This document shows, piece by piece, positions 2,888-38,116 of a stretch of 39,542 nucleotides of DNA. The stretch is from contig JAJRPE010000445.1 of NCBI GenBank assembly GCA_024280935.1, forward strand, positions 1 to 39,542, read 5' to 3'. Within the stretch, counting starts at the first letter, position 1. Every line of letters starts with the position of its first letter. The notes below the pieces were generated by a model. It ran no database searches, had not been told where the DNA came from, and was given only the letters and a program-made list of their open reading frames with translations. A program made the translations under genes and the position numbers. The stretch is from Candidatus Hydrogenedentota bacterium. GTDB taxonomy: Bacteria; Hydrogenedentota; Hydrogenedentia; Hydrogenedentales; JAEUWI01.

Positions 2888-2935
2888 TGGGCGTCCCGCC
2901 TGTGTTTTTCACAGCCGAGACGGCTGTGCCACTTT
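2888..2935. repeat. Composite triloop palindrome with GTGCCAC flank
   Basis: Two palindromes lie side by side: GGCG-TCC-CGCC (2890-2900) and CACAGCCG-AGA-CGGCTGTG (2910-2928, perfect 8 bp), followed by GTGCCACTTTC. The same pair of stems, in the opposite order, is at 26203-26253 with the same GTGCCACTTTC flank. It sits between the stop codons of two convergent sulfatase genes (2781-3010), with no other gene in that gap. Confidence 0.8.
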
Positions 2936-2984
2936 CTTGTTGCCGTTGCCTGTGGGATCCACGCAAGCGGGCAGAGCCTATATG

Positions 2985-2999
2985 CCGTAACGCTTACGG
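2985..2999. repeat. Triloop palindrome 3' of the minus-strand sulfatase
   Basis: CCGTAA-CGC-TTACGG is a perfect 6-bp palindrome with a 3-nt centre, 11 nt past the stop of the sulfatase ending at 3011. There is no T-run after it on either strand, so intrinsic termination is doubtful; it fits the general triloop plan of the window. Confidence 0.6.
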
Positions 3000-3010
3000 A
3001 GAATCAATGG

Positions 3011-4522
3011 CTAACCCGGAAACGGAACCGGATTTTTCGTTTCTTTGCTAATGGGCATAAACGCCCCTGCATCCCTCAGAAATGCTCCCAGCTCTCTCGA
3101 TAGTCTTTCGGCTGTCTGCACTTGTTTGCTGTAAAGGTTGTCGGTTTCGCCGATGTCATTCTTCAGGTTATAGAGTTCATAGTGCTGGTCCTCGTGGAAG
3201 TAGATAAGCTTCCAGTCGCCCTTGCGAATCACGCTATAGGGATATTGATTATAGCTGTGGGGGAAATGCCAGAAGATGGCCCGGTCCTTCGGGTAGCCTT
3301 CCTCCTGTTTGAGGAGCGGAATGAAACTGACTCCGTCAACGTTGCCGCCGATTTGATCATAGTTGGCGACCCCGCCCATCTCCAGAATCGTCGGAAAGAT
3401 ATCCTCGATAATGAAGTAATCATCACAAACCGCTCCCGCTTCCGTTACGCCGGGCCATTTCACCAGGGCGGGCACCCGGATGCCGCCTTCATACGGGGTG
3501 AGCTTATGGCCCCGGAGCGGTTTGTTCCGGTCTGCCTGGCTGGGCTGGCCGTTGTCACTCATGAAAATGATGATGGTGTCATCCTCAACCCCATGCCGTT
3601 TTAGATTGGCCCGCAGGTCGCCCAGAGATTTGTCCATCCCCTCGATCATAGAGGCGTAGGCCGCGTCCCAGTCGTCAAGGCCCTGGTCCTTATATTTCTG
3701 GAAATACCGGGCATCTTTCTCCCACGGCGCATGGATGGCATAGTGCGACATATACAAATAGAAAGGCTTATTGTCCGCCACGGCTTGGTCAATGGCCTTG
3801 TTCGCCTCCAGGGTCAACGCCTCGGTCAGGTAGATATCCTGCCCGTGATAGGCTTCCAGGCCCGGCACGTCCCAAATCCGGTCTGGACTGCGCCATGAGG
3901 CGCTGAAATTGTACTTGCCATAATAGCTGCCCGGCCCGCCAGCGGCATGACCTGCAATGTTTACATCGAAGCCCAGATTCAGCGGGTCTTCGCCGGGCGT
4001 GCCCTGAGCGCCCCAATGGGCTTTCCCCGCATGAATCGTGCGGTATCCCGCTTCTTGCAGGAACATAGGCAAGGTCTTTACATGCTTCGTTCGTTCGATT
4101 CCAGCCACCGGGCTGATGCCATTAAGGTTCCATTCAGGCATTGTCAGAGTTTCATGGGGCGGATCGGGCGATTTGTTTTTTCGAAGCGTCCAGTTCGTCA
4201 CCCCGTGGCGGGCCGCATTCAGCCCGGTCATCAGGCTCACCCGGCTGGGAGAGCATACGGCGCTGGCATAGGCCTGCGTAAACTTCATGCCCTCATCCGC
4301 AAGCCGCTCCATATTGGGCGTGTAATAGCGCCTGTTTAAGTCTGTCACTTCTGTATGGAACGGCTCCGACGTGTCCTGCCAGCCCATATCGTCGACGAAG
4401 AAAAAGAGGATATTGGGTCTGGAAACAGGTGCAGCGTCTGCCCTTCGGACGGAGATGGGTGCTTGGAATAAAGCCGCTATGCCCAATGCCCCCGTACGTT
4501 TCAGAAAATCACGTCGATTCAT
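3011..4522 (-). CDS. Tat-exported type I sulfatase
   Basis: 503 residues from ATG 4522, which has AGGGAG about 8 nt upstream; the frame is open to 4603 but the extension carries no signal. The N-terminus MNRRDFLKRTGALGIAALF is a twin-arginine (Tat) signal, so the enzyme is folded before export. RPNILFFFVDDMGWQD holds the metal Asp pair (D44/D45) and C90-S-P-S-R is the formylglycine motif. Later segments include HAGKAHWG and IIFMSDNGQPS. The use of Tat here and Sec-type signals in the other two sulfatases suggests different folding or cofactor needs. It is divergent from the SNF2 gene at 4771, with a 248-nt shared upstream region. Substrate unknown; sulfated glycans are likely by family and neighbourhood. 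Confidence 0.92.
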   Translation of the reverse strand: MNRRDFLKRTGALGIAALFQAPISVRRADAAPVSRPNILFFFVDDMGWQDTSEPFHTEVTDLNRRYYTPNMERLADEGMKFTQAYASAVCSPSRVSLMTGLNAARHGVTNWTLRKNKSPDPPHETLTMPEWNLNGISPVAGIERTKHVKTLPMFLQEAGYRTIHAGKAHWGAQGTPGEDPLNLGFDVNIAGHAAGGPGSYYGKYNFSASWRSPDRIWDVPGLEAYHGQDIYLTEALTLEANKAIDQAVADNKPFYLYMSHYAIHAPWEKDARYFQKYKDQGLDDWDAAYASMIEGMDKSLGDLRANLKRHGVEDDTIIIFMSDNGQPSQADRNKPLRGHKLTPYEGGIRVPALVKWPGVTEAGAVCDDYFIIEDIFPTILEMGGVANYDQIGGNVDGVSFIPLLKQEEGYPKDRAIFWHFPHSYNQYPYSVIRKGDWKLIYFHEDQHYELYNLKNDIGETDNLYSKQVQTAERLSRELGAFLRDAGAFMPISKETKNPVPFPG

Positions 4523-4770
4523 AAGGCTCTCCCTGTTTTTCCGATGTTTGTTGCCGGGCGATTCTAGTGCGCAGACAGGCGACGCGTCAAATGAGGTGCG
4601 CAAGATGGAACACGATGGACAGAAACTTCTCTTGTTTTTCTTCTATCTGCTCTTTGGGATTGAATCTGTCCATTCAAATCCGGTAATTTCAACCCGCTCC
4701 CTGTGCTTCGCCACAAGCGAAACCTGTTTTCCCGTCTCAAATGTTTAACCCAGAAAAGAAGCATTAATAC
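4523..4770. promoter_or_regulatory. Divergent intergenic region between sulfatase (-) and SNF2 gene (+)
   Basis: The region must hold both promoters. I see a 9-bp inverted repeat, ATGGACAGA (4615-4623) and TCTGTCCAT (4665-4673), 41 nt apart, which could be an operator or chance. No convincing -35/-10 pair could be fixed by eye on either strand. Confidence 0.3.
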
Positions 4771-7700
4771 ATGTGCGCACGAAAAAAAACCAGAAAAAGT
4801 ACAAAAAATAAAAAAGTCACGCCTCCGCAGGACATTCGCGGAAAACTCATGGCGGACTACGAAGGGCTGTCGGATTTTGAGAAGGGTATCCTCGATGTTC
4901 TCTCGCTACTTTATATGCCCGCTGATTGGGGAAAAGTAGTCAGGGTCCTCAAGGGCTGCGGGGTGCGCGACGGAGCCAATCGCGTACCAACGCGAAACTC
5001 GATTGACAACGCGCTCAGGAAGCTGATGAAGTTGGGCCTTGTTGAAAAGAGCGGCCAACGTTATACCTGTGTTCGGCCTGTGGTGGAATTACTCACGCGA
5101 CGTGTGGTCGAATCGGGACGTTTTTCGGTGTGGGAACCCACCGTTTTCAAAACAATACCCTATGAGCAGTATTGGGGCGGGCGAAGCTACTTTCATTCTG
5201 TACCCCATGCGTTGGCGCATATCCGATTGGCCTTTTACGCCAAGGATTTTAAGCGCCTGGATCAGATCATGGAAGATGTTTACGCGTGGGACGGCTTTCC
5301 CGAAAACGAACGCTACCCTTTGTCCGAGTTCATTGAAAATCCCTTTGATGGGGATTGGTTTGCTCAGTTTCCCCCGAAACGCCAGGGAGTGTGGTTGATT
5401 TACCTGTTGCAAGATTGCGCACGGACAGGTGCTGCGTCTGGCGATATTGTTGCGTACACTTGGCGGCGCATGGGTAAATTTCCTAAGGAAAATCAAGCAA
5501 CGCTTCACTTTCTTCTCGCTGAGATTTCCTTGATGCAGGGTAATTTTGAGGAGCCTCCGTCCGCCTTAGAGGTGTTGCCCGACTACTATATCGATTTGCT
5601 CCGTGCCCGGCGTTTTCTGCTGACCGGATCCACGCTGGAAGCCATTGCCCTCTATGAATCTTGTCTGGCGATAATCAAGAAGTCAACGCGCAAGAGAAAA
5701 CCTAAGTTTGAGACGATTGACTGGATCTTTTTCATCCTGGCTTTACTCGATGCGGGCGATACCCATTGGCCCCGTGCCTTGGAGTTGGCCCAATGGGGTG
5801 CTTCAGACAATTCGTATTATTTTGGGACCCTTTGCCAGGAATTGAAAAATCTGATCAAAACAGAAATTGATGGTGTCGACGAGCGCATAGATCCCCATGC
5901 CTGGAGGTATAACACGTGGAAAAATGAAACAAGCAGACCCCTTCAGTATATCGGACTGCTTCTGGCGTGCTGGAAGAATCGGGCCGATATCGAGAACGCC
6001 CACCCCTTGCTCGAAGATATTTTCGCAGAAACCCAAGCGAATGGGTACACCTGGTTCGCGGCTGAATACGCCGCGATTCTGCACAGGGCAGGTTGCGTCA
6101 ACAAGGGTTATGGAAAACTTTCCGACGAACTGCACTTGATCATGGGTACACGGTCGTTGACCACAATAATCAAGCTCATGGCACCATGGGAACGCACCTT
6201 GAAGGCCCTGGCGCGAATAAAGAAGGCCGGGGGTGGGGCGAAAGGCACCACGGAAAAAGAGGTCAGGCTGGTTTGGTTTGTCTCGGTGACGAAGGGCTAT
6301 TGTGACATCCAGCCCAAAGAGCAAAAATGCTCCGCGAAGGGGCGGTGGACCAAGGGACGCAATATTGCCCTGCGTCGCCTCTATGAAGAGGGGGAGAAAC
6401 TGGGTTACCTGACCGACCAGGACCTGAGCGTATGCCGACACATTGTTGCGGATATGGATACGGGCTACTGGGGGCGCTCCGGGGTGGACTATTACCTTCC
6501 CACGCGGGCGTTGACGGCGCTGGTCGGTCATCCCCATATTTTCCTCATGGACACCACAATTAGTGTGGACGTTGTGGCGGCGACACCGGAGCTTCAGGTA
6601 ACAAAGACCAAGCGGGCGCTGAAGCTGACGATGAATCCTCCGAAGCCCGAAAACGATGATGTTTATGTGGAGCGTGTCGGGGATTCTCGCATTGTCGTTT
6701 ACGAATACACGCCCGAGATTTGCCAGGTGGCCAAGATAGTCGGCAAGGGGGTAGAGGCCCCTGCCAAGGCAAAGGAGGATGTCCTCAAGGCGGTGGGTAA
6801 CGTGGCCTCCATGGTGACGGTGCATTCCGATATCGGCATTGCCGATGCATCTATCCCCAAGGTGGATGCTGATGCCACACCCCTGCTGCAACTTCTGCCC
6901 TCGGGGGAGGGCCTGATTGTGCAACTGCGAATCCAACCCTTGCCGGATGGCGGCCCCTTATTTCCTCCGGGAGCTGGGGGAACAGCCGTTATTGCCGAAG
7001 TGGAGGGCACCCGTATACAAACCGAGCGGAACTTCGAGACGGAGAAAAAGAACGCCGACGAAGTGATTGCAGCCTGTGCAACGTTGTCCAACGCAGAGGC
7101 ATGGGAAGGGGAGTGGCAACTGGATGAGCCGGAGTCGTGCCTTGAGTTTTTAGTGGAGTTGGAGGCGTGTGAGGCGACCATGCGGGTGCAGTGGCCCAAG
7201 GGCCAGAATTACAACATTCAGGGATCGGCGGGCATGGGTCAGTTCCGGGCCAAAATCAACGGGGGCCACAATTGGTTTGAGCTTTCGGGCGAGGTGAAGG
7301 TGGATGATGATCTCGTGCTCGATATGCAGCGCCTTCTCGAACTTACCGAAACATCGAAATCGCGCTTCGTCGATTTGGGCAACGGGCAATTTCTGGCATT
7401 GACCCGGTCCTTCCGAAAGAAGTTGGACGAATTGCGTGGCCTGGGAGAGATGGGCGATAAGGGACTGCGTATGCATGCCCTGGCGGCACCGGCGATGGAT
7501 GACCTGGTGGAGCAGGCGGCATCGGTCAAAGCCAATAAGAAATGGAAAGACCAGGTCCAGCGCCTTCAAAAAGCCCGTGAACTCGACCCGAAGATTCCCT
7601 CCACCCTTCAAGCTACGCTGCGTGATTATCAGATTGATGGCTATAAATGGCTCGCACGCCTGGCAGAATGGGGCGTGGGCGCCTGTCTCGCCGACGACAT

Positions 7701-8988
7701 GGGCCTGGGCAAGACGGTGCAGATATTGGCGGTGATGCTGGAGCGTGCCACCGATGGGCCGCAGCTTGTTATGGCGCCGACGTCGGTTTGCATGAACTGG
7801 GAAGACGAGGCCCGCCGTTTCGCCCCCACCCTGAAGGTGCATCGCTTTGGCGTGGGTGATCGCGAAGAACTCATGCGTGATCTGGGAACCTTCGATGTGG
7901 TCGTCGCCAGCTATGGCCTCTTGCATAGCGAAAGCGCCCTCTTTAAGGAGGTGGACTGGCAGACCATTGTGCTGGATGAAGCCCAGGCCATCAAGAATAT
8001 GGCGACCAAGCGCTCCAAGGCCGCCATGGACCTCAATGGTTCCTTTAAGATTATCGCGACCGGCACGCCCATCGAAAATCATCTGGGCGAACTCTGGAAC
8101 CTCTATCGCTTCATTAATCCCGGCTTTTTGGGTTCTGCGGATAGCTTCAATAAGAAATTCGCCCTGCCCATCGAAAAGTATAAGGACAAGGATACACGGC
8201 AACACCTTCGGCAACTTATTCAACCCTTTATCTTACGTAGGCTCAAGGGCGATGTGCTGGATGAGCTGCCGCCCCGAACTGATATCGTCCTCCATGTGGA
8301 GTTGAGTAAAGAGGAACGGGCCTTTTACGAGGCAATCCGTCAGCAGGCGCTGAAAAACCTCAGTGACGTGAAAGCAGAACCCGGCAAGCACCACGTAAGA
8401 ATTCTCGCGGAGATCATGCGGCTGCGGCGGGCCTGTTGCAACACGCAGTTGGTGGACGAAAAAAGCACCCTGCCGAGCGCCAAGCTGGAGGTCTTTGAGG
8501 CGGTCCTGGATGAACTGTTGGAAAACCGCCACAAGGCCCTGGTTTTCAGTCAGTTCGTCGGCCACTTGAATCTCTTGCGGGCGCTCTTGGATAAAAAGGG
8601 GATATCCTATCAGTACCTTGATGGGAGTACGCCCGCCAAAAAACGCAAGAAGGCGGTTGATGCCTTTCAGGCAGGAGAAGGCGATCTCTTTCTCATCAGC
8701 CTCAAAGCAGGGGGCGTAGGATTAAACCTGACCGCCGCCGACTACGTCATCCATATGGATCCGTGGTGGAACCCAGCGGTCGAAGATCAAGCCTCGGACC
8801 GCGCCCATCGAATCGGGCAACAGCGGCCCGTGACCGTGTATCGACTGGTGGCGAAGGACACCATCGAAGATCAAATCGTTGATCTCCACCATCAAAAACG
8901 AGATTTGGCAAGTAGTCTGCTTGAAGGCAGTGATATGGCCGGAAAAGTCACCGCCGAACAGTTGCTGGCCCTGCTCAAAAACAACTGA
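4771..8988 (+). CDS. Large SNF2/SWI2-family DNA translocase (DEAH-type ATPase) with long novel N-terminal half
   Basis: 1405 residues. The C-terminal 450 are a complete SNF2 motor: ADDMGLGKT (Walker A, about 973-981), LDEAQ (Walker B, about 1067), the ATGTPIENH segment (motif III), SLKAGGVGLNLTAADYVIHM and DRAHRIGQ (motifs V-VI, about 1310-1350). These proteins move along double-stranded DNA using ATP. The N-terminal half has no family I can name. Residues about 25-110 look like a winged helix (FEKGILDVLSLLY to LMKLGLVEK), and about 130-480 look helical and repeat-like. No SWIM zinc-finger (CxC...CxH) is visible. An alternative start is Met27 at 4849; the ATG at 4771 has only AGAAAAGAAG upstream. 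It stands alone between sulfatase genes, with no nuclease, methylase or other defence partner. Possible roles are chromatin-like remodelling, repair or transcription recycling; the sequence does not decide. Confidence 0.88.
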   Translation: MCARKKTRKSTKNKKVTPPQDIRGKLMADYEGLSDFEKGILDVLSLLYMPADWGKVVRVLKGCGVRDGANRVPTRNSIDNALRKLMKLGLVEKSGQRYTCVRPVVELLTRRVVESGRFSVWEPTVFKTIPYEQYWGGRSYFHSVPHALAHIRLAFYAKDFKRLDQIMEDVYAWDGFPENERYPLSEFIENPFDGDWFAQFPPKRQGVWLIYLLQDCARTGAASGDIVAYTWRRMGKFPKENQATLHFLLAEISLMQGNFEEPPSALEVLPDYYIDLLRARRFLLTGSTLEAIALYESCLAIIKKSTRKRKPKFETIDWIFFILALLDAGDTHWPRALELAQWGASDNSYYFGTLCQELKNLIKTEIDGVDERIDPHAWRYNTWKNETSRPLQYIGLLLACWKNRADIENAHPLLEDIFAETQANGYTWFAAEYAAILHRAGCVNKGYGKLSDELHLIMGTRSLTTIIKLMAPWERTLKALARIKKAGGGAKGTTEKEVRLVWFVSVTKGYCDIQPKEQKCSAKGRWTKGRNIALRRLYEEGEKLGYLTDQDLSVCRHIVADMDTGYWGRSGVDYYLPTRALTALVGHPHIFLMDTTISVDVVAATPELQVTKTKRALKLTMNPPKPENDDVYVERVGDSRIVVYEYTPEICQVAKIVGKGVEAPAKAKEDVLKAVGNVASMVTVHSDIGIADASIPKVDADATPLLQLLPSGEGLIVQLRIQPLPDGGPLFPPGAGGTAVIAEVEGTRIQTERNFETEKKNADEVIAACATLSNAEAWEGEWQLDEPESCLEFLVELEACEATMRVQWPKGQNYNIQGSAGMGQFRAKINGGHNWFELSGEVKVDDDLVLDMQRLLELTETSKSRFVDLGNGQFLALTRSFRKKLDELRGLGEMGDKGLRMHALAAPAMDDLVEQAASVKANKKWKDQVQRLQKARELDPKIPSTLQATLRDYQIDGYKWLARLAEWGVGACLADDMGLGKTVQILAVMLERATDGPQLVMAPTSVCMNWEDEARRFAPTLKVHRFGVGDREELMRDLGTFDVVVASYGLLHSESALFKEVDWQTIVLDEAQAIKNMATKRSKAAMDLNGSFKIIATGTPIENHLGELWNLYRFINPGFLGSADSFNKKFALPIEKYKDKDTRQHLRQLIQPFILRRLKGDVLDELPPRTDIVLHVELSKEERAFYEAIRQQALKNLSDVKAEPGKHHVRILAEIMRLRRACCNTQLVDEKSTLPSAKLEVFEAVLDELLENRHKALVFSQFVGHLNLLRALLDKKGISYQYLDGSTPAKKRKKAVDAFQAGEGDLFLISLKAGGVGLNLTAADYVIHMDPWWNPAVEDQASDRAHRIGQQRPVTVYRLVAKDTIEDQIVDLHHQKRDLASSLLEGSDMAGKVTAEQLLALLKNN

Positions 8989-9106
8989 CGTATATTGAAT
9001 TGAATGCATGAAGCAGTCTAGCATGTCACAGGTGGTGAAATTCTGGAATGCGTTCGCAACGACGAATTTGTTGGTGCTCCCTGTGCAACAGGGCGAAAGG
9101 AGTTTT

Positions 9107-10345
9107 ATGAGTTTCAGGGCCGTATTCTTGTCCGCTTTTTCCGTTGTCCTTCTCCTTGCCGCCAGGCAATCTTTTGCGCAACCTGGGGAGACAGTTTCTC
9201 CCGATGGGGCGAACGTTGTTAACGTTGTTGATTTTGGTGCCAAGGGGGACGGACTGGGGGATGATGCCGCCCCGATTCAGAAGGCGCTTGACAGCGGCGC
9301 GGCGCTGGTGACGATCCCCAAGGGAGTCTACCTCGTTGCACGCACGCTCCAGATTCCTTCGGATGTGACGCTGAAGGCCGACCCGGAGGCCGTAATTCGA
9401 TTAGCGGATGGTGCAGGCACGCATGCCCGTGTATTCGTACTGACCAATAAAAATCAGGGTAATGGCAACAGAAACATCACGGTAGAAGGGGGGATTTGGG
9501 ATGGCAACAACGAGCACAACCACCGGGGCAAAGATGGCGACCTGAATGGCTACACGGGCACGGCCATCAATTTCGTCAATGTAAAAAATCTTACACTTCG
9601 AGATCTCACGGTGCGCAATCCAGACGCATTTTCAATACGCCTGGGGGAAGTGGAAGACTTCCTGGTGGAAAACATTGTGTTGGATCATACCGTGATTCGC
9701 CCCAACCAGGATGGCGTGCATGTGGGAGGATTTTCCCAGCGAGGCACTATCCGCAATATACGCGCCCTTCATCCCAACACACCCAATGATGACATGATCG
9801 CGCTTAATGCGGATGATGACGTGGAACGGGTTCTCAACCTGGGAATGCGGCGCGGCCCCATCCGCGACATCCTTGTGGAAGATATCCAGGCCGAAGGCGC
9901 TTATAACTTTGTCCGCCTCCTGAGCCAGGAAGCGCGCCTTGAAAATATTGTCGTGCGGCGCGTTAGCGGTACTTGCCGCATCTACGCCGTGAACATGAAC
10001 CGTTGGCGCTTTCCCGCCGGATCCGGCGACATCCGCAATGTACGGCTCGAAGAATTTGACGTGACCAAAACACCCGGTTCGGCGCCGGCGCAAAGCTTGA
10101 TACATATCACGCTCATGGTCCGCGATCTCTATATCACCGACTTTCAACGAAACTCCCCTTCGGAAGCATCGAAGGCGACGACCCTGCTCCTTGATAACGG
10201 GCGCACCAACACGATTCAGGAAGGCGACGGCCCGCCGCAGGAAAAAACGACTGCTTTCAGCATCCCACAGGGCAGTATCAAGGCGCTTTGGGTGAACCGC
10301 TCGCCAAGCGTTCAGCCCCAGCATTCCGATGCGAGTTCCAAGTAG
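9107..10345 (+). CDS. Secreted right-handed beta-helix protein, pectate lyase / GH28-like
   Basis: 412 residues. ATG 9107 is chosen because AAAGGAG lies 5 nt upstream and a signal peptide follows (MSFRAVFLSAFSVVLLLAAR to SFAQ); the frame is open to 9008. The mature N-terminus NVVDFGAKGDGLGDDAAPIQ is the hallmark of the pectate-lyase-3/GH28 entry strand. Many later turns repeat an NITVEGG / NLTLRDL / NIVLDH pattern of beta-helix rungs. NQDGVHVGG and NDDMIALN are where polygalacturonases carry their catalytic Asp residues, but the GHG and RIK motifs of canonical GH28 are not clear, so hydrolase, lyase or binding-only are all open. Its TAG stop is directly followed by the ATG of the next sulfatase, suggesting joint translation and action on one sulfated, uronate-containing glycan. 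Confidence 0.8.
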   Translation: MSFRAVFLSAFSVVLLLAARQSFAQPGETVSPDGANVVNVVDFGAKGDGLGDDAAPIQKALDSGAALVTIPKGVYLVARTLQIPSDVTLKADPEAVIRLADGAGTHARVFVLTNKNQGNGNRNITVEGGIWDGNNEHNHRGKDGDLNGYTGTAINFVNVKNLTLRDLTVRNPDAFSIRLGEVEDFLVENIVLDHTVIRPNQDGVHVGGFSQRGTIRNIRALHPNTPNDDMIALNADDDVERVLNLGMRRGPIRDILVEDIQAEGAYNFVRLLSQEARLENIVVRRVSGTCRIYAVNMNRWRFPAGSGDIRNVRLEEFDVTKTPGSAPAQSLIHITLMVRDLYITDFQRNSPSEASKATTLLLDNGRTNTIQEGDGPPQEKTTAFSIPQGSIKALWVNRSPSVQPQHSDASSK

Positions 10346-11968: not shown

Positions 11969-12395
11969 GTGTATGACGACTTTTCTTTGGACGAAATGAC
12001 AGTTTTTCATTTCTGAAGATATCAGTTCGTCAAAAGGTAAACGCTGGCCGGCAGGAGTGCGGAGTTTCCAGTCCGCAACAAAGGAAGCGTTGTACCAGCA
12101 AAGGCATCTCGGGTTTACATACATGGGCTGGTGCAACGTGTGCCCTGCGGGGGCAGGAAAACCCGCCCTCCTGGACCCAGTGAACGCTTACGTCAAGAGT
12201 TTGAACGCATTGGCTTGGTCCGTTGGAACACCACTTTCCGAATCGAGTACACTCTACGTGTATTGGCGTGTAGCTCAGGGGGACGTGTTGCTAATGTCGG
12301 CTGCGCTCTTCGCCCGTGCGTCTTTCGGCGGACTTTCTCTTGTTACAGCATCGCGCCGCATGAGGCCAAAAACAACCAACTCGGGATCTATTTTG
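11969..12395. other. Intergenic region, no gene recognised
   Basis: 427 nt between the sulfatase and prpD. There is a weak AT-rich hairpin (GAAATGA 11993-11999, TCATTTC 12007-12013) without a U-run, and GCGGAGTTTCCAGTCCGC (about 12058-12075), which resembles the palindromic repeats elsewhere but has no exact 3-nt centre. The prpD frame is open through 12057-12395, but the encoded peptide does not look like part of the family. Confidence 0.5.
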
Positions 12396-19024: not shown

Positions 19025-19345
19025 GTGTTCGTTCGCCGGGAAGAATCGAATGTATATGTTGAACGTTTTTCTACGTTCTCATTCTTGAGTAAGCGTTCAC
19101 AGTGAGCACTCAGGGTGCCACCCTTACACGGAGGAGCGAAGCGGGGGAGTTTAAGGGTGTAGCAGGACATCAGGGAAAGAATTACGCCAGCAATTAAGGC
19201 GGTGTGTTGTCCCTGTCCTCTGAAATGCTACCCACGGGTGTCGGCTCCTCTTGGTAGCCCGCACCCACAAGGCCACTCGTGTCCGTGTAGGTGGCACCCT
19301 TGGGTTCGTTTGGGATGTTTGGGCTAGTTAAGCGGAAGCTCCGCA
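19025..19345. repeat. Intergenic repeats downstream of the ATPase and pabB genes
   Basis: 321 nt with no gene. 19119-19159 is a symmetric inverted repeat: 19-nt arms around a central GAA, with the outer CACCCTTA/TAAGGGTG perfectly paired and inner mismatches, like an old member of the triloop family. 19261-19299 is a GTGGCACC-ended element whose reverse complement recurs, with small changes, at 21229-21276 on the other side of pabB. Confidence 0.65.
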
Positions 19346-21082: not shown

Positions 21083-21483
21083 GATTGGAGCAAGCCCGGA
21101 TGGATTTATGAATACTTACGATTTACGAAACGTTTCTTTATTTTTGCGTCTTTGCGTGTCAAAAAAAATGGTAAGTGTTCATGGCCCAACGTTTCCGATG
21201 TTGACCTTGTCTCTTTCAAAATGACCTGGGGTGCCACCGACACGGACACGAGGCACGAGTGGCCTTGTGGGCGTGGGTTCACAGACTGCTCAGGGTGCCA
21301 CGGACAAGGGGCGATAGCCCTTGCCCGTGTTTGTGGACACCCTGTCCAACATTAAAAAACAGGTGTTGAGCTGAACCCATGTTTCCACACGGGCAAGCCC
21401 CACAGGGCTTGACCGTGGCACCCAGAGGTGTGTCTTTGTCCTCTGACGTTGCCTGTGTGGTAGAAACGTTTACTTGTTGGCTG
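21083..21483. repeat. Repeat-rich intergenic region upstream of pabB
   Basis: 401 nt with no gene. 21229-21276 matches, inverted, the element at 19261-19299, with one copy carrying an extra GGCACGA. 21296-21344 (GGTGCCACGGACAAGGGGC, then complementary GCCCTTGCCCGTG) and 21388-21417 (CACGGGCAAGCCC, loop CACA, GGGCTTGACCGTG, one mismatch) are two long hairpins, each flanked by GTGCCAC or GTGGCAC. Three related hairpins thus lie within 200 nt. Confidence 0.65.
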
Positions 21484-26135: not shown

Positions 26136-26202
26136 CAAAAAGGGAGGAAATTTCTCACTGTACACGGAACACCTACACGCAGAGGAATCCTTGCATGGGA
26201 AT

Positions 26203-26257
26203 GTGGCACAGCCGTCTCGGCTGTGATCTACACAGGCGGGACGCCTGTGCCACTTTC
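26203..26257. repeat. Composite double palindrome flanked by GTGGCAC/GTGCCAC
   Basis: Two perfect 8-bp triloop palindromes in tandem: CACAGCCG-TCT-CGGCTGTG (26207-26225) and CACAGGCG-GGA-CGCCTGTG (26231-26249). The outer ends GTGGCACAG (26203-26211) and CTGTGCCAC (26245-26253) are themselves complementary, so the whole unit can also fold as one stem. The copy at 2888-2935 has the same two stems. It lies between the tyrA and padR upstream regions. Confidence 0.85.
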
Positions 26258-26352
26258 CTGCGCGGGGTGATTCAACATGCCGCGATGTCGCCCATAGCTC
26301 CCTATTCCTGCCCATGCCAAGACGGTGAGTACTGGAAATACCTGCGGACCCC

Positions 26353-27638: not shown

Positions 27639-27686
27639 GACTCATTCCTTATTGTTGTGATTGAAGTGAAGACGGGAAATGGTCTA

Positions 27687-28479: not shown

Positions 28480-29195
28480 GTTTTGGTCTCCTCTTTTGTA
28501 TGAACGATGCCGTATGCATGCGTCCATTAACTGCTTGGGTTCAGCAAAACGTGTGCCATAAACCCCAACACCAAAAACTGAAGATTAAACCGGTGTACGA
28601 TGGCTTGCCAAGGCAAGTGCGCCGAATAGTGATTAGGATCTGTGCATCCGATGGTCAGTATCCTCTCAGAGCGTGTTAGGCCATGCCATGGAATACTAGA
28701 TTACCCTCAGCTTGGAAATTAACACTTCTCGTTCCGGCCATACGGTAGATGTCAAGCCTATTGAGACAGCCGTTACTTTTAACGAAGACCCTTTATTTGA
28801 GCAAGGAGTTCACGTAGGTTGGGCTTCCAGCCTGAGACAAAGGAATCGGTGTTGTTCAACGGGTGATTGCGCCATGGAATGGCCGTCCGGATTAGGCACG
28901 GCCATGGTGTGCTGCGGTGACGGCGACGAGGTACCTTGGACTCAAAAGGGGGTAGCATTCCATGGCACGCGGCGCTTATTGGCAAGCAGGGCACACCTTG
29001 TCTCAGGCTGGAAGCCTAAGCTACGTTCGCGACCTTCTGAACATCCATCCATTCTCCAAAGTCTACGGGTGCCACGGGTAGGCCCGAAGGGTTTACCCGT
29101 GTAAAACCGTGACTCGTTATGTAACACTTGGGTTTATTCAGCAACCCGATTCCGGCGGTTGCACGTATTTGTTCTATTCGGAGATCCACAGACCC
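28480..29195. repeat. Long repeat-rich intergenic region with facing repeat copies
   Basis: 716 nt with no convincing gene. Copy B of the dispersed repeat (28812-28838) and copy C (29002-29026) face each other: both contain GCTTCCAGCCTGAGACAA read towards the middle, and both reach a GCCATGGAATG block about 30 nt further in (28870-28880 and, inverted, 28956-28966). 29073-29101 is a 13-bp triloop hairpin (outer CACGGGTA/TACCCGTG, centre GAA, two wobble pairs) preceded by GGGTGCCAC. Open frames here merely translate the repeats. Confidence 0.7.
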
Positions 29196-32003: not shown

Positions 32004-32633
32004 TGCCCGTCCACCCGTATGATGAAAAAGTCCGCGAGGCGACCGACGGAAAAGACGAGTATAGCGCGGGCTTTCAGCCCTTATCATTGAATTTGGCCCC
32101 GTTAACATGGGGCGTTGCCCCATGCTGATATGGGTTCGGGCCGTTGGCCCTGTATTCAACGTGTGTGAAATTTGGGAGAACCTGATAGCGCCAACGGCGC
32201 GATATATACCAGCTTGAGGCGAAGCCCCAGGAAAAGGGTATAAAACAGGATAGGGCTGTAGGCCTGAAATATCTTTCTGCTGGCTACGCCACATAAAACA
32301 CGTGATTCCACGATGGGTGAAGCGGCAATAAGAAAGCAGCACCCCAAAATAGTATGCGTTTTTATTGGCCTGAAAGGCCTGAATAGGTTAGCCCAGGGCA
32401 ACGCCCTGGGTTAGCGGATGCGACAAAACAAAACGCCCTGAAAGGGCACAATAGGAGTTTATCGTCATCTTGTTGTGCCCTTTCAGGGCGTAAACAAAGT
32501 GAAATAAATCCTGACCCAGGGCGTTGCCCTGGGCTAACCTGTAATGCCCCTTCGGGGCGCTGGACCGTAAGCGAGAGCTTGATTGCCACGCCGATATCTT
32601 TGAGGCCAGGCAAACGGTACGAAAGATGGTGCT
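32004..32633. repeat. Cluster of triloop palindromes in 630-nt intergenic region
   Basis: No gene. Perfect palindromes with 3-nt centres: GGGCT-TTC-AGCCC (32068-32080), CATGGGGC-GTT-GCCCCATG (32106-32124), GGGCC-GTT-GGCCC (32138-32150), GCGCC-AAC-GGCGC (32188-32200), TGGC-TAC-GCCA (32281-32291), GGCCT-GAA-AGGCC (32367-32379), CCCAGGGC-AAC-GCCCTGGG (32392-32410), GCCCT-GAA-AGGGC (32435-32447), GCCCT-TTC-AGGGC (32477-32489), CCCAGGGC-GTT-GCCCTGGG (32515-32533), GCCCC-TTC-GGGGC (32546-32558). Imperfect ones are at 32212-32230 and 32253-32265. From 32386 to 32539 the set is a nested mirror: outer 29-nt arms 28/29 complementary, inner 19-nt arms (32433-32451, 32473-32491) perfect. Confidence 0.85.
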
Positions 32634-33704
32634 ATGTCTGCACGCTTGGACATCCTGCGTTCCGAATTAGAAACCCACGATTGCGACGCGTTTGTTAGCT
32701 TTTCTCCCCCAGCCAACGAGTATTTGACGGGGTTCAGGGGCAGTACCTCTGCCGTTCTTGTCACCCCGGAAGCATCGGTGTTTCTTTGCGATTTTCGCTA
32801 TACCGAGCAGGCCGGAGAGCAGGTAAAGAACTTTGACGTTGAAGAAGTCCAGGGGACCATGGAAACCCGTGCGGGGGAGGCCTTGGCCCGTTTGGGCGCA
32901 TCCCGTGTTGCCGTAGAACCCGGCACCCTGTCTTTGGCCCAGAGTCTGGCCTTTGAGGAGGCTTTTGGCACCCCGGTTCATCCTGTGAAGGGCGTGGGCG
33001 TAAATGCCCGCCAGGTAAAGTCGCCCGAAGAACAAGAGAAACTTCGGGCCGCGACCGCCTTGGCGGAGGCCGCTCTTTCCGCCTTGCTTCCTATACTCAA
33101 AGAAGGCATTACGGAAGCGGAGTTTGTGGCGCAACTTGAGTTTGAGTTCAAGAAACGGGGGGCGCAAGGTGCCTCTTTCGACCCCATAGCCCTCTTTGGT
33201 TCGCGCAGTTCCCTGCCCCACGGAATGCCCGGAAACAAGCCGCTGGAGCGGGGTGATATCGTATTGCTCGACCTCGGTTGCATCCTTGAAAGTTACTGCT
33301 CTGACTTGACTCGAACTTTTGTATTCGGTACCATCCCCGGAACGTGGTTTGAAGAGATCTACCATGTTACCCTTAACGCCCAATTGGCAGCGCTCGACGC
33401 TATTCGACCCGGCGTGCCCTGTCGCGAAGTGGATGCTGTTGCCCGAGACATTATTTCGGATGCCGGCTACGGCAAATATTTTGGTCACGGTCTCGGCCAT
33501 GGCGTCGGCTTGGAAATCCACGAAGCACCGCGATTAAACCAGCATTCCGACACGATTCTGGAATCCGGTATGGCCGTAACGGTCGAGCCGGGCATCTATC
33601 TGCCGGGCAAGGGGGGGGTGCGTATTGAAGATTTGGTTTTGGTTACAGATTCGGGTTGCGAAATTCTGACGCAGCTTCCGAAGGATTTGAAGGTACTTGA
33701 TTAA
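32634..33704 (+). CDS. Xaa-Pro aminopeptidase / dipeptidase (M24B metallopeptidase)
   Basis: 356 residues from ATG 32634. The five metal ligands of the pita-bread fold are in place: D213 and D224 (LLDLGCILES, SDLTRTF), H289 (FGHGLGHGVG), E318 (VEPGIY) and E332 (RIEDLVLV); H196 in LPHG is also conserved. The N-terminal 125 residues form the creatinase-like domain. It cleaves the bond between a residue and a following proline in small peptides. Length matches the short YqhT/PepQ-like group. The TAA stop shares its last A with the efp ATG, so the two are coupled. The ribosome site before the ATG is weak. Confidence 0.93.
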   Translation: MSARLDILRSELETHDCDAFVSFSPPANEYLTGFRGSTSAVLVTPEASVFLCDFRYTEQAGEQVKNFDVEEVQGTMETRAGEALARLGASRVAVEPGTLSLAQSLAFEEAFGTPVHPVKGVGVNARQVKSPEEQEKLRAATALAEAALSALLPILKEGITEAEFVAQLEFEFKKRGAQGASFDPIALFGSRSSLPHGMPGNKPLERGDIVLLDLGCILESYCSDLTRTFVFGTIPGTWFEEIYHVTLNAQLAALDAIRPGVPCREVDAVARDIISDAGYGKYFGHGLGHGVGLEIHEAPRLNQHSDTILESGMAVTVEPGIYLPGKGGVRIEDLVLVTDSGCEILTQLPKDLKVLD

Positions 33705-34270
33705 TGAGCATTTCAACATCTGATTTTCGTAACGGACTTGTCGTCGAAAGCGACAAGGGCCTGATCGAAATCGTTGAGTTTCAACATGTAAAGCCCGGCA
33801 AAGGCCCCGCCTTTGTGCGCACCAAGTTTAAGAATCTTCTTAGCGGTCGGGTGATTGAAAAAACCTTTCGTTCTGGCGAGAAGTTTGAAGAGGCCCGTGT
33901 TGAGTCACAGACGTGGCAATATTTGTATACGGACGGTGACCTTTACCACTTCATGCACAACGAAACCTATGAACAACTCGGGGTAGGTGCTGATTTGGTG
34001 GGTGATAATTCGCGTTGGATGAAGGAAAACTCCAACGTGACCATCCTGTTTCACAACGGGAAGGCTATTTCCCTGGCGGTCCCACTCAGCGTTGAGCTTA
34101 CGATTACCAAGTCTGACCCCGGTGTACAGGGTGATCGCTCCTCAGGGGCGACCAAGCCCGCAACCCTGGAAACGGGTGTCACTATCCAAGTGCCGCTCTT
34201 TTTGGAAGAAGGTGAAGTGGTTAAGGTGGACACGCGTACGGGTGACTACTTGGAACGTATTAACAAATAA
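33704..34270 (+). CDS. efp: Translation elongation factor P
   Basis: 188 residues with the three-domain EF-P plan: KOW-like domain I with KPGKGPAF (30-37), then two OB folds; VPLSVELTI, GDRSSGATKPATLETG and LFLEEGEVVKVDTRTGDYLER are typical. EF-P binds between P- and E-sites and relieves stalling at polyproline. The tip residue is Lys33, so the modification would be of the lysine kind (EpmA/EpmB or another) or none, not arginine rhamnosylation. The modifying enzymes are not in the window. Overlap with the upstream peptidase (TAATG) indicates one transcript. Confidence 0.96.
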   Translation: MSISTSDFRNGLVVESDKGLIEIVEFQHVKPGKGPAFVRTKFKNLLSGRVIEKTFRSGEKFEEARVESQTWQYLYTDGDLYHFMHNETYEQLGVGADLVGDNSRWMKENSNVTILFHNGKAISLAVPLSVELTITKSDPGVQGDRSSGATKPATLETGVTIQVPLFLEEGEVVKVDTRTGDYLERINK

Positions 34271-34348
34271 GTTGATGCATAGCAGGTGCAACGGAATGGG
34301 TTGAGGAACTTAATTCACTTGCACCGTCCGTGATGGAGGGTATGATTC

Positions 34349-34813
34349 GTGGACTTGAAAGAACTCAAAGAACTCGTCAGCTTGCTGGAATCTTCCGAGC
34401 TGTCTGAACTGGAAATAGAAGAAGAAGGCCGTCGGATTCGTCTTACGAAGAAGCCGGACCCCGTTGTCGCACAGGCGGTGGCAATTCCCGCGCCCGCAGC
34501 AGAGCCAGTGGCCGCCGCGCCCCTGCCAGCGGCTGGTCCGCCCGCCGAAGCCACCTTGGCTGATGAGGGCCTGGTTTCTGTGGATTCACCCATGGTGGGC
34601 ACGTTCTACGTGAGTCCTGCGCCGGGTGAGCCTTCCTATGTTCAGGTCGGCGACAGCATTTCGGCCGATCAGACGGTTTGCATCGTCGAAGCCATGAAAA
34701 TCATGAACGAAGTGGCTGCGAAGGTGGCGGGGACGGTAGAGCGCGTCTTGGTGGAAGGTGGCGAACCCGTTGAATTCGGCCAGCCTCTTTTTGCCATTCG
34801 ACCTGCCTCCTGA
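34349..34813 (+). CDS. accB: Biotin carboxyl carrier protein of acetyl-CoA carboxylase
   Basis: 154 residues; the start is GTG 34349, with GGAGGG 8 nt upstream. An N-terminal helix region (LKELKELVSLLESSELSELE) leads into an Ala/Pro-rich linker (about 40-70) and the biotinyl domain, with the biotin-accepting Lys117 in EAMKIMNE. AccB carries carboxybiotin between biotin carboxylase and carboxyltransferase in fatty-acid synthesis. The segment SPMVGTFYVSPAPGE (80-94) includes the thumb loop seen in E. coli-type BCCP. It precedes accC by 19 nt. Confidence 0.96.
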   Translation: MDLKELKELVSLLESSELSELEIEEEGRRIRLTKKPDPVVAQAVAIPAPAAEPVAAAPLPAAGPPAEATLADEGLVSVDSPMVGTFYVSPAPGEPSYVQVGDSISADQTVCIVEAMKIMNEVAAKVAGTVERVLVEGGEPVEFGQPLFAIRPAS

Positions 34814-34832
34814 CGACGAAAGAGCCACCATT

Positions 34833-36176
34833 ATGCTGCGACGCGTACTAATTGCGAACCGGGGTGAGATCGCCGTCCGGATTATTCGGGCATGCCGCGA
34901 AATGGGCATTGTGTCCATTGCGGTGTATTCTACGGCCGATGAGGACTCGCTCCATGCGGCCTTGGCCGACGAGAGCATCTGCATCGGGCCGCCGGAACCG
35001 GCCAAAAGCTACCTTAACATTCCCAGTATCATATCGGCTGCCGAGATTACCGACGCTCAGGGAATCCACCCCGGCTATGGTTTTCTTTCGGAGAGCACCA
35101 AATTCGCCAATATTTGTGCGGATTGCAACATTAAGTTCATCGGACCCTCGCCTGAAGCCATCTCCCTGAGCGGTGACAAGGCCGCCTGCCGTGAGGCGGT
35201 AAAAGCCGCCGGGGTTGTCACGGTTCCCGGTAGTGATGGACTCGTGTCCGACCCCGAGATAGCCCTGAAACTTGCCCAGGAAATCGGGTACCCGATTTTG
35301 GTAAAAGCCGCCGCAGGTGGTGGCGGCAAGGGCATGCGGATGGCCCACAACGATGCCACGCTGAAACACTCCATGACCACGGCCTCGAACGAAGCCCAGG
35401 CGGCCTTTGGCGACGGCGGGGTGTATCTGGAAAAATTTATTGACAACGCCCGGCACGTGGAAGTGCAGGTTCTCGCCGACGAGTACGGCAAGATCGTGAC
35501 GCTGGGCGAGCGCGAATGCAGTATTCAGCGCCGCCATCAAAAGCTGATTGAGGAATCCCCCTCCGCCACGCTTAGCAACTCTCTCCGCTCCAAGATGTTC
35601 AAAGCGGCGATGAAGGCCACCAAAGCCATCAATTACAGCAATGCGGGCACGGTTGAATTTGTGCTGGCTCCCAATGGGCAGTTCTACTTCATTGAGTTTA
35701 ATGCGCGAATTCAGGTGGAGCACCCGGTGACGGAGCAGGTGACGGGAATCGACTTGGTGCGGGAGCAGTTGCGTATCGCATCGGGCGAAGCCCTGGGCTA
35801 CAGCTCTGTGAAGTTGAGCGGGGCGTCTATCGAGGCCCGCATCTACGCGGAGGATCCCGAAAGGAACTTTATGCCCAGCCCGGGTATAATAAAGAGTTGT
35901 CACATGCCTGGGGGACCAGGTGTTCGGGTGGATACCCACATTTTTGCCGGATACGAAGTCCCTCGGTATTACGATTCCCTGCTGGCCAAGGTGATTACCA
36001 CTGGTAAGGATCGGGACCAGGCCATTGAACGCCTGGGTGGTGCATTGGATGAATTCATCGTTGAAGGGGTGAACACGACAGCGAAGCTGTGTGCGCGCAT
36101 AATTCGGGGAGACCGATTCCGACGGGGCGACTTGGGTCCGGATTTGATCAACGAGTATGTGGATATGTCGGGCTGA
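34833..36176 (+). CDS. accC: Biotin carboxylase subunit of acetyl-CoA carboxylase
   Basis: 447 residues from ATG 34833, the start matching the family's MLxRVLIANRGEIAVR opening; the frame is open into accB. ATP-grasp features: K116 (GDKAA), K159, the glycine loop GGGGKGM (162-168), and metal/bicarbonate residues E275, E288, N290 and R292 in FIEFNARIQVEHPVTEQ. Most homologues have Thr after that Asn; here it is Ala. It carboxylates biotin on AccB using ATP and bicarbonate. Length and motifs are standard, so the enzyme should be active. Confidence 0.97.
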   Translation: MLRRVLIANRGEIAVRIIRACREMGIVSIAVYSTADEDSLHAALADESICIGPPEPAKSYLNIPSIISAAEITDAQGIHPGYGFLSESTKFANICADCNIKFIGPSPEAISLSGDKAACREAVKAAGVVTVPGSDGLVSDPEIALKLAQEIGYPILVKAAAGGGGKGMRMAHNDATLKHSMTTASNEAQAAFGDGGVYLEKFIDNARHVEVQVLADEYGKIVTLGERECSIQRRHQKLIEESPSATLSNSLRSKMFKAAMKATKAINYSNAGTVEFVLAPNGQFYFIEFNARIQVEHPVTEQVTGIDLVREQLRIASGEALGYSSVKLSGASIEARIYAEDPERNFMPSPGIIKSCHMPGGPGVRVDTHIFAGYEVPRYYDSLLAKVITTGKDRDQAIERLGGALDEFIVEGVNTTAKLCARIIRGDRFRRGDLGPDLINEYVDMSG

Positions 36177-36252
36177 GCGTCGGTCTTCACAGCGTAGCGG
36201 GTTGCTTTTGTTACAGGGTTCCTTTTCAATGAGGGTTCAGAAAACAATTGAT

Positions 36253-36278
36253 GCGTGGGTGTCAATAGACACGCACGC
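36253..36278. other. Hairpin in the leader of the AmaP-like gene
   Basis: GCGTGGGTGTC and GACACGCACGC pair over 11 positions with one G-G mismatch and loop AATA, 69 nt before the ATG at 36347. No T-run follows. It may be an mRNA stabilising stem or an attenuator between accC and the next gene; the 170-nt gap holds no gene. Confidence 0.4.
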
Positions 36279-36346
36279 CGAGGCGGACTTACGTTCGGCC
36301 CCAACAGGGTGTCTCGCGAACGATTGCTTGAAAAGGAACTAATCCC

Positions 36347-37825
36347 ATGAAACTGTTCATCCTGAAACTGCTGAGTCTTTTCGTGCTGTGCCTCGGCCTG
36401 ATATCCTTGGCCTACAACATCGGATTCGCCCCTGTAACCGATATGGTTGCGCAGATTCCTGATCAACTCGTGGAACTGCAAAACAACCTGCCGGAGTCCG
36501 TCGTACAGGCAAAAGGTGTGTTGGAGATTAAGATTCTCTGGCTGATTGGCTCTATCGTGGCCATCGTTTTTGGCATTTATGGCTTTATGCCCCGTTCTAA
36601 CAAATGGAGAAAGCCGAAAAAGATTTCCTATGACGGCCCCCATGGCTTGGTTCAGATTCAACTCGATACGGTGGAAGAATCCCTCAACCGGGTGCTCGCG
36701 CGCATGCCCGAGGTCAAGAAGATTGATGTGAAGGTCGAGCCACGGGAGGGGGGCCGAAGTGCCCTCATCAAGGCCGATGTCGTGCTCCAGCACCAGGCGG
36801 GCCAGAATGCCCGTGCTATTGCGGGACTCGTAAGCGACTACATCGCTGAAACAGCCACCAAGATGCTTGGTTTGGAGGAACTGGCGACCATAGAGCTGAA
36901 CATTGTGGGGATAAACGTAAACTCCAGAAAATCGAGCAAGGTAATCAGAAAAGAGAGTCTTAGTCACTCGGGCAATGCGCCCGTTGAGTTGCTGGAAGCT
37001 TCCCCAAAACCAATGGTCCTCTCCGCGCCCGGCGAACCCCTTGGCAGCGGTCCCGTTGAGGAGGAGCTGGAGGAGGATGGTGGTGGAGTTGATGCCGCCT
37101 TGGAGGCCAGTGCGGTTGGTTCCGTCGAAGAGGAGTCCAAGCAGGCTGCCGCCCGTTCCGAACTCCTGGAGCCGCTGAGCCTTCATGAACCAGCTGCGGA
37201 GCAGACGGGTGAGCATAAGGAGGCATCGGTGGACCCCGGTCAGGAGGACGATGGCGTGGGGGAGTCCGCTGAGTCCGTAGAGGAAGCGATGCCCGCCATC
37301 GAATCGCCTTCCGTTGATGGCGACGTTGCGAGCGTTCAGGTTGTTCCCGAACCTTTGGGCGATCTGGTCGACGATGACGAGCATGTCGAATCTGGCGCCG
37401 ACGTGACGGTGCCAGAGACGGATGTGGAAGTTCCCGAAACGGACACGCCCACCGACGATCTGGCATCGCCGGAAGAGGCCCCTTCTCCCGCGTCGCCGTG
37501 GGCTCCGCTTGATACGGAACCAGAACCGCAGGTCGAAATGCCCGATGATTTCGATGCGAATAGCTCAATAACGGTGGACTCTGAAGGTGAAGTCGCAGCA
37601 GAGTCGAACGATCCGCTTGAATCGACAGAGGAAGGCGGCGCGACCGATTTTGTGCCTGACGCTGAAGTCGGCGCGAGTGAATCGACCGATTCTATTCTTG
37701 GCGATTTGGCTCCCGAAGGCGAAGAGGCGCTATCGGATAGCGCGCTGGAATCGGATGGCGAAGAAGCTGCATCAGAGGACGAGCCAGCGCAGAGCGAGAA
37801 AAAAAGCTGGGGGTGGTTTAATTAA
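36347..37825 (+). CDS. AmaP/Asp23-like membrane protein with a long acidic tail
   Basis: 492 residues; ATG 36347 with AAGGA about 9 nt upstream. Helices at about 4-24 and 62-81 bracket a 35-residue loop, as in AmaP. Residues 93-192 (ISYDGPHGLVQIQLDTVEES to IELNIVGINV) fit an Asp23/Gls24-like alpha-beta domain. From about 205 to 488 the chain is a disordered, Glu/Asp-rich region (EEELEEDGGG, ETDVEVPETDTPTDD), ending in KKSWGWFN. In Firmicutes AmaP anchors Asp23 to the membrane and is tied to cell-envelope stress. It lies where yqhY, an asp23 paralogue, follows accC in Bacillus, which supports the assignment. The acidic tail is unusual and its role unknown. Confidence 0.7.
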   Translation: MKLFILKLLSLFVLCLGLISLAYNIGFAPVTDMVAQIPDQLVELQNNLPESVVQAKGVLEIKILWLIGSIVAIVFGIYGFMPRSNKWRKPKKISYDGPHGLVQIQLDTVEESLNRVLARMPEVKKIDVKVEPREGGRSALIKADVVLQHQAGQNARAIAGLVSDYIAETATKMLGLEELATIELNIVGINVNSRKSSKVIRKESLSHSGNAPVELLEASPKPMVLSAPGEPLGSGPVEEELEEDGGGVDAALEASAVGSVEEESKQAAARSELLEPLSLHEPAAEQTGEHKEASVDPGQEDDGVGESAESVEEAMPAIESPSVDGDVASVQVVPEPLGDLVDDDEHVESGADVTVPETDVEVPETDTPTDDLASPEEAPSPASPWAPLDTEPEPQVEMPDDFDANSSITVDSEGEVAAESNDPLESTEEGGATDFVPDAEVGASESTDSILGDLAPEGEEALSDSALESDGEEAASEDEPAQSEKKSWGWFN

Positions 37826-38116
37826 TTGTTGAAAAGGGGGAGGATTTTTACCTTTAGCGCATAAGTTAAACCATCAGCTTTGCTGGTGAGGATTCATCAG
37901 GTTCTGCCGTTCCCGCGTTAGTTGTTGGCATTCATACACTGAGCGGTTGCGCTATGTTGTTTTAGTCCCTACGGGACTAGCTGCTTTGGCTTCGTAATCG
38001 GCCCCTTTTTTGGGGGCTTTCTCAAGCCACCTGCACTGCAGGTGGTTGCTGGTTGTTCCTGAACGCAGGAGATATGAATTATCCTCCACACCGGACCGCA
38101 TCGAAAACGCGAAGTC
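37826..38116. repeat. Intergenic cluster of triloop palindromes
   Basis: No gene. CATCAGC-TTT-GCTGGTG (37872-37888, one wobble), TAGTCCC-TAC-GGGACTA (37963-37979, perfect) and CCACCTGC-ACT-GCAGGTGG (38027-38045, perfect 8 bp) share the 3-nt centre plan. GCCCC-TTTTTTG-GGGGC (38001-38017) is a further hairpin with a 7-nt loop, followed by TTT, and might act as a weak terminator. Confidence 0.75.

Follow-up and report, generated by a model that had tools for sequence, protein, structure and literature searches.

The palindromes considered here lie between genes on contig JAJRPE010000445.1 of a Candidatus Hydrogenedentota bacterium (assembly GCA_024280935.1), a stretch of 39,542 nt that was analysed whole and is referred to below as the window; it is contig C572 of a 6.76-Mb genome in 661 contigs. 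The closest described systems are associated with Y1 transposases. Repetitive extragenic palindromes (REPs) and REPINs, which go with RAYT (TnpA-REP) transposases, are short, multi-copy, intergenic palindromes that form inverted pairs and flank a Y1 gene. Members of the IS200/IS605 family, such as IS608 and ISDra2, have hairpin ends with a T in the loop, which their transposases contact according to the accessible text of PMC8266576. The available portion of a survey of TnpA-Y1 proteins (PMC6006769) describes two further groups: subclass 1.2, found mostly in Cyanobacteria and Bacteroidetes, with no REPs and generally no terminal IS200 hairpins, and class 3, found in Planctomycetes and Acidobacteria, with CnGA-tagged hairpins and a high copy number in Solibacter. 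A motif catalogued in another context, Acido-Lenti-1 (RF01687), is rated a probable RNA of Acidobacteria and Lentisphaerae in the accessible part of Weinberg 2010, is typed as sRNA by Rfam, and is guessed to have a regulatory role in a 2026 paper (PMC13298647), as far as its accessible text goes. We conclude that the main palindromes of the window are very probably end modules of a family of Y1 (HUH, single-strand) transposase elements and of its short, transposase-less derivatives, joined by GTRG-tagged REP pairs as a second system.

An earlier note on this DNA had described a single window-wide family of more than 20 intergenic palindromes, with a fixed three-base centre and freely varying arms, and had proposed a comparison of loop lengths with shuffled sequence. 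We counted perfect palindromes in 138,666 crude intergenic bases (those without an open reading frame (ORF) of at least 100 aa) within 867,182 bases of the genome. Those with a loop of 3 nt numbered 335, 133, 81, and 60 at arms of at least 5, 6, 7, and 8 bp, compared with means of 104.7, 26.4, 6.0, and 1.2 (maxima of 122, 37, 11, and 3) in 20 dinucleotide shuffles, a sharp excess of about 50-fold at 8 bp and about five-fold at 6 bp that rules out a chance origin. Loops of 2 and 4 nt were raised as well at arms of at least 8 bp (22 and 19, compared with shuffled values of 1.7 and 1.4), and the three-base centre is thus the peak of the distribution but not the sole enriched size. Coding DNA showed a mild excess at loop 3 (26 palindromes with arms of at least 8 bp, compared with 8–16 at loops of 4–12 nt), part of which comes from repeats that the crude ORF calls had taken in; coding counts at loops of 0 and 1 nt, which runs of N inflate, were left unused. 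Within the 4,619 intergenic bases of the window, 15 loop-3 palindromes had arms of at least 5 bp, compared with 3.64 in 200 shuffles (maximum 9). When arms of 4 bp were allowed, as in the earlier note, 29 were found, compared with 14.0 (maximum 24), so that about half of them are expected by chance. Nor are the palindromes spread evenly over the window, as 10 of the 15 lie within 32068–32558, in one 630-nt spacer (32004–32633).

Most palindromes of this spacer fall into four modules, for which the full order is a hairpin H3, about 23 nt, a hairpin H1 with 8-bp arms, a foot that is usually 12–13 nt long and starts with CT, and a hairpin H2; the loops are mostly T-rich and 3 nt long on the outward strand. 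Module 1 (32068–32150, + strand) consists of H3 at 32068–32080 (GGGCT-TTC-AGCCC), H1 at 32106–32124 (CATGGGGC-GTT-GCCCCATG), the foot CTGATATGGGTTC at 32125–32137, and H2 at 32138–32150 (GGGCC-GTT-GGCCC), the order seen at the downstream end of the transposase gene L007. Module 2 (32188–32231, − strand) is inverted, with H2 at 32188–32200 (GCGCC-AAC-GGCGC), a foot, and an imperfect H1 at 32213–32231. Modules 3 and 4 are the two ends of a miniature element at 32367–32558. The former (32367–32447, − strand) has H2 GGCCT-GAA-AGGCC, foot TGAATAGGTTAG, H1 CCCAGGGC-AAC-GCCCTGGG, and H3 GCCCT-GAA-AGGGC; the latter (32477–32558, + strand) has H3 GCCCT-TTC-AGGGC, H1 CCCAGGGC-GTT-GCCCTGGG, foot CTAACCTGTAAT, and H2 GCCCC-TTC-GGGGC, unlike the H2 of module 3.

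When loop-3 hairpins with arms of at least 6 bp were listed (140 rows, with seven window rows entered twice), the constant part beside them proved to be an unpaired flank, the foot: GGTTAG or TATACCAG adjoins hairpins of CCCAGGGC or CCTGGGGC, GTGG or GTAG adjoins those of [CG]ACAGNCG, and AAGTTCCGTC adjoins several different hairpins. It is the first of these types that the Acido-Lenti-1 model of Rfam matches. The arms of H1 mostly read C[CA][CT][AGT]GG[GC]C, and in eight aligned copies of the main family in the genome H1 and H3 are invariant and H2 takes two main forms. Free variation of the arms is thereby rejected. A single window-wide family is rejected too; the note had read several families as one, there being at least two unrelated sets in the window and more elsewhere in the genome (AGCCGG-TTC, GTTGGC-GAA, and those with the foot AAGTTCCGTC).

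The genome contains 18 matches to the Y1 transposase family (PF01797), 17 of them over the cut-off. Four of these genes, present in low copy number and encoding about 150 aa, are of one type with the signature Y---Q--HH, DH[IV]H, and WQ, which is invariant in all four proteins (one of them represented by its C-terminal part only) and by which they appear to match the published subclass 1.2. The proteins differ from one another, with 35–41% identity to the first, and L008 (contig C320), which is also the longest relative of an internally deleted form described below, is frame-broken. Inverted H1-foot-H2 copies flank all four genes on both sides, and the H1 of L005, L006, and L008 is longer than that of the window copies. 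A listing of hairpins with loops of 2–4 nt and arms of at least 6 bp, in which long-loop H1 hairpins would be missed, showed no such module at the other 14 Y1 genes. The transposase profile matched the solved IS608 and ISDra2-type transposases with the HUH and Tyr residues aligned, and both proteins tested exceeded the cut-off of the NCBIfam IS200/IS605 model; a Y1 HUH transposase is thus common to this family and IS200/IS605.

The same arrangement was found beside related transposases in other genomes. We took the best 80 of 539 relatives, ranked by similarity to the proteins of this genome, and the rates of association given here are therefore those of this selection and not valid for the whole subclass. 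Most are from Verrucomicrobia, with others from Acidobacteria, Planctomycetes, Armatimonadetes, Deltaproteobacteria, Kiritimatiellota, Lentisphaerae, and further groups. Among the 75 loci tested (five with less than 150 nt on a side were dropped), modules occurred upstream in 56, downstream in 56, and on both sides in 44. Mononucleotide shuffles, which also underlie the values for H3 below and are a weaker control than dinucleotide ones, gave 4.15, 4.45, and 0.15. Requiring a CT-type foot left 98 modules, in 61 of which 41–64 nt separate the start of H1 from the edge of the match to the protein. H3, usually GGGCT-TTC-AGCCC or GCCCT-TTC-AGGGC, lies about 23 nt inside H1 at 27 of the 32 upstream ends and 23 of the 31 downstream ones (3.6 and 3.5 when shuffled). 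A gene's upstream foot agrees with its downstream foot at 0.90, compared with 0.63 on permutation (0 of 10,000; 32 loci), and across 55 loci identity between feet follows identity between proteins (Mantel r 0.40, 1 of 2000 permutations), as does identity between the arms of H1 (r 0.25, 1 of 2000) and H2 (r 0.26, 13 of 2000). Common ancestry contributes to both the foot-protein and the end-end agreement.

Pairing was assessed from the feet outward by taking all outward-facing CTG[GT][TG]AT[GA] octamers within 500 nt of these genes, whether or not the adjoining DNA pairs; there were 100 in 54 of the 80 loci, and 26 more face inward. H1 is paired at seven or eight of its eight positions beside 84 of the 100 (background 0.45%), and all five H2 pairs form beside 84 at the best of six offsets (background 4.8%). 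At least two types of Watson-Crick pair occur at six of the eight H1 pairs, pair 1 deviates only as mismatches, and pair 5 is constant. The covariation of H1, suspected in the earlier note, is therefore real. The loops are stranded: read outward, that of H1 is GTT in 56 of 84 cases and AAC in none, and that of H2 is TTT, GTT, or TTC in 71 of 76. By analogy with the loop T contacted in IS608 and ISDra2, the outward strand would be the likelier substrate.

Gene-less derivatives were recognized as inverted pairs, H2-foot-H1 ... H1-foot-H2, of which 21 were found in the genome sequence examined, 20 of them of the CCCAGGGC or CCCAAGGC type; of these 20 directional elements, nine lie in the window or on contigs sampled by number and the others in regions chosen by Rfam match. 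Each of the 20 has two unlike H2, one GGCCT-like and the other GCCCC-like, and in 17 the inner gap is 95–104 nt, which makes the unit about 190 bp long. The two ends also differ in ten L005-type copies, which align throughout at 81% mean column identity. The two ends are therefore not equivalent, as in an insertion sequence. The 21st pair (L049:6423-6687) has ends from two foot families, CTAACCTGTT and CTGGTATATC.

The 630-nt window spacer with its four modules corresponds to 205 nt in one sister genome (G001) and 181 nt in another (G002), and neither orthologous spacer contains a module; the exact edges are lost in this comparison because the genomes are of different species. An internally deleted form of the transposase, with one large deletion, is represented by five full-length copies with 89–100% identity to the query copy (copies are at L319, L320, and elsewhere in the genome, on C75, C305, C163, C127, and C289), and both of the two copies read lie between both ends. 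The window also carries a repeat at 37930–38051 that includes an H2-like palindrome at 37963–37979 (TAGTCCC-TAC-GGGACTA) and a loop-1 palindrome at 38027–38045 (CCACCTGCA-C-TGCAGGTGG). This repeat is continuous at four places (the window, C518, C479, and C215), and many other copies are split at the 13-bp H2 palindrome by about 200 bp; in six interrupted copies read directly, the unit is 201–205 bp with an H2 at each edge, and insertion and excision are indistinguishable.

When the main family is set beside the known systems, it resembles REPs and REPINs in being made of multi-copy intergenic palindromes that flank a cognate Y1 gene and form inverted pairs, but it differs in its three hairpins per end, its unlike ends, its transposase of another subclass, and the lack of a GT[AG]G tag 5′ of the hairpin: the feet that follow H1 (CTGG[TG]AT.., CTAACCTGTT, and others) place CCAG, TTAG, or others there on the opposite strand. 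IS200/IS605 elements have the closest solved transposases and similar hairpin ends with a T in the loop, but their ends are non-inverted, whereas both ends here are inverted copies that run H1-foot-H2 outward with the same foot, the genes are single-copy and diverse, and short gene-less derivatives are many. Subclass 1.2 has the same motifs, protein length, and low copy number, in contrast to the elaborate ends and the occurrence mostly in Verrucomicrobia and other phyla found here. The nearest published case is class 3, which has the phyla and the atypical hairpins adjoining the gene in common with our family; it differs in its motifs NHVH, W[TA], and Y----Q, which are not in the genes here, and in its tag, as the foot here starts with CT. 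Titles and abstracts of the open-access literature gave no description of such ends for the Y1 transposases of these phyla beyond two REP surveys.

The RF01687 model, two hairpins in 46 nt, spans H1, foot, and H2. In the window it gives three matches, at modules 4 (36.8 bits), 3 (33.6 bits), and 2 (26.9 bits), all under its gathering threshold of 37 bits, the first only just. In the genome there are at least 139 matches at E ≤ 0.01 and at least 85 over the threshold, both lower bounds because 150 of 2,200 first-look candidates were scored. Over-threshold matches at the relatives number 34, in 17 of the 80 loci. Among 67 relatives up to order level, 37 have both RF01687 and a strong transposase match, eight the RNA only, five the protein only, and 17 neither (Fisher p 5.5e-6, not corrected for relatedness, with strong meaning a 1e-20 cut chosen after the list was known). 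Acido-Lenti-1 was described as an RNA; the H1-foot-H2 that its model covers is here part of a three-hairpin end, in inverted pairs and adjoining a Y1 gene. A link between the motif and a transposase was not found in the open-access Acido-Lenti-1 literature, as far as its accessible text goes. As a side observation, Acido-Lenti-1 matches also stand in tandem at 67–68-nt steps, five in L173:3751-4068 and three in G044 contig C24:55209-55388, so that modules also form arrays.

The modules could instead be genuine small RNAs or 3′-UTR structures, as Rfam has it for Acido-Lenti-1, with the adjacency to transposases secondary. The Rfam type and the 2010 rating in its accessible form speak for this, as do the stranded loops and the conservation of hairpins and feet while spacers drift. 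We consider it improbable, given that 32 of the 34 over-threshold matches are no more than 600 nt away from the transposase gene, which is 29% of the area (in 80 loci picked by transposase), that the organization is inverted and two-ended, and that the copies are dispersed, numerous, and missing at orthologous sites.

Taken at the level of sequence comparison, the modules stand inverted around transposase genes, their feet are common to both ends of a gene and correlate with the transposase, and dispersed short copies with unlike ends are missing from orthologous spacers. In an element of the kind we propose, exposure of a strand, as during replication, would let the ends fold, and the transposase would read hairpin, loop, and foot, excise the unit, and reinsert it; by analogy with the enzyme's relatives, excision and insertion would be single-strand events, the outward strand would be the likelier one used, and the foot may act as a guide. 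A transposase that reads a fold would tolerate paired changes in the arms, with loop size and foot kept. The earlier note's appeal to selection on structure or to a process that copies hairpins, with REPs and RAYTs as a parallel, was right in kind, in view of the flanked Y1 genes, the inverted pairs, and the absence from sister spacers. The contrast it drew, that REPs share sequence and these palindromes share geometry, is not supported, as the copies have a common foot and constrained arms and the pairs at 2884–2932 and 26203–26253 bear the classic REP tag GTGG. Its observation is in sum partly confirmed and its interpretation partly supported.

Several findings weigh against a transposon origin. 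No movement was seen. In the eight aligned miniatures of the main family, hairpins and feet are conserved and the spacers are not, which makes these copies either ancient or selectively maintained and not the products of recent transposition. It may be, too, that the spacers of the sister genomes are not pristine empty sites, since each has one loop-3 palindrome with 6-bp arms that may be a remnant, and that of G001 (CCCGCT-TTC-AGCGGG) resembles H3. A module is missing from at least one side having at least 150 nt in 13 of the 80 loci, and from both sides in a few, including the sole Bacteroidetes member (L198). RF01687 exceeds its threshold in only 17 of the 80 loci, and the link to Acido-Lenti-1 at the other 63 therefore rests on common architecture. 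A strong transposase match is lacking in eight of the 45 relatives that have Acido-Lenti-1, and Acido-Lenti-1 in five of the 42 that have the transposase; such mismatches may reflect assembly gaps, loss, or drift.

A less probable alternative than the small-RNA one is that ends and transposase have been domesticated and are immobile, with a host role in, for example, DNA topology, replication, or the stability of mRNA, of the kind suggested for some REPs. The divergence of the four genes, which are not multi-copy, the broken frame of L008, and the persistence of hairpins amid saturated spacers would fit such a role, but the internally deleted copies of 89–100% identity at five sites and the absence of copies from congeners point to past spread; domestication differs from the transposon reading in present activity only. 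A reading of the palindromes as terminators, whether intrinsic or bidirectional, or as chance is scarcely credible despite their intergenic location and G+C-rich stems, as chance fails against the shuffles and, in the module listings (no terminator scan was made), H1 is followed by a conserved foot such as CTGG[TG]ATG and not by a T-run, the lack of which the earlier note had pointed out.

The second system of the window consists of two REP pairs with outer GTGG tags. That at 2884–2932 comprises an imperfect hairpin near 2888–2904, TTTTT, the hairpin CACAGCCG-AGA-CGGCTGTG at 2910–2928, and CCAC; that at 26203–26253 comprises CACAGCCG-TCT-CGGCTGTG at 26207–26225, a 5-nt spacer, and CACAGGCG-GGA-CGCCTGTG at 26231–26249, and was left out of the window count because a spurious ORF covers it. 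The CACAGNCG hairpins at both places have GTGG outside both arms. Across the 867 kb, 16 of 22 perfect hairpins of the CACAGNCG class have GTRG on one side and none on both, and the loop on the GTRG strand is TCT or TCC in 15 of the 16. One Y1 gene, L018, is flanked by two GTGG-class hairpins, of which the upstream copy has a mismatch, and none was seen beside the similar Y1 genes L015, L016, and L022; the GTRG-tagged pairs are thus probably served by L018. With a GT[AG]G tag, a perfect short stem, an inverted pair, and a flanked cognate Y1 gene, the GTGG pairs carry the classic REP features, and the accessible descriptions of REPs (PMC3733652 and PMC6006769) fit them fully. The pair at 26203–26253 is missing from the orthologous spacers of G003 (108 nt) and G001 (117 nt, compared with about 320 nt in the window), neither of which has a loop-3 palindrome with 5-bp arms; here, too, the genomes belong to different species and the precise edges cannot be read. 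A match to an animal microRNA family at 26191–26265 (Rfam, 34.2 bits against a threshold of 84) was rejected, the stretch being the REP pair.

The five remaining loop-3 palindromes of the 15 in the window are that at 2910, in the first REP pair, that at 37963, and three singletons, at 2985–2999, 19332–19344, and 21334–21348, which have no assigned family and are possibly chance occurrences (3.6 expected at arms of at least 5 bp). Elsewhere in the genome, a repeat family of the form CACACGC-AGCCGG-TTC-CCGGCT-AAGTTTGCGG was observed at L017:1876-1890, where it adjoins a different Y1 gene, and at L032, L048, L072, L084, and L093. The genes of the window are ordinary and include those for sulfatases, an SNF2-type helicase, thymidylate kinase, prephenate dehydrogenase, and biotin carboxylase.

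In the sources accessible to us, Acido-Lenti-1 has been listed since 2010 as an RNA without known function, and subclass 1.2 transposases had no reported DNA partner. On balance we lean, by a small measure, toward seeing in the two one class of single-strand transposons, widespread and not linked before, with subclass 1.2 Y1 transposases, triple-hairpin inverted ends, direction written in the outer hairpin, and miniatures catalogued as small RNA; the 3-nt-loop geometry would be kept while arms and foot drift with the transposase, so that the code of hairpin recognition might be readable by comparison. If the link is true, "transposon end" would be the better description of the Rfam entry, the remains of mobile elements would account for many annotated non-coding RNAs, and the many transposase-foot pairs would form a natural set for learning how folded single-stranded DNA is read.

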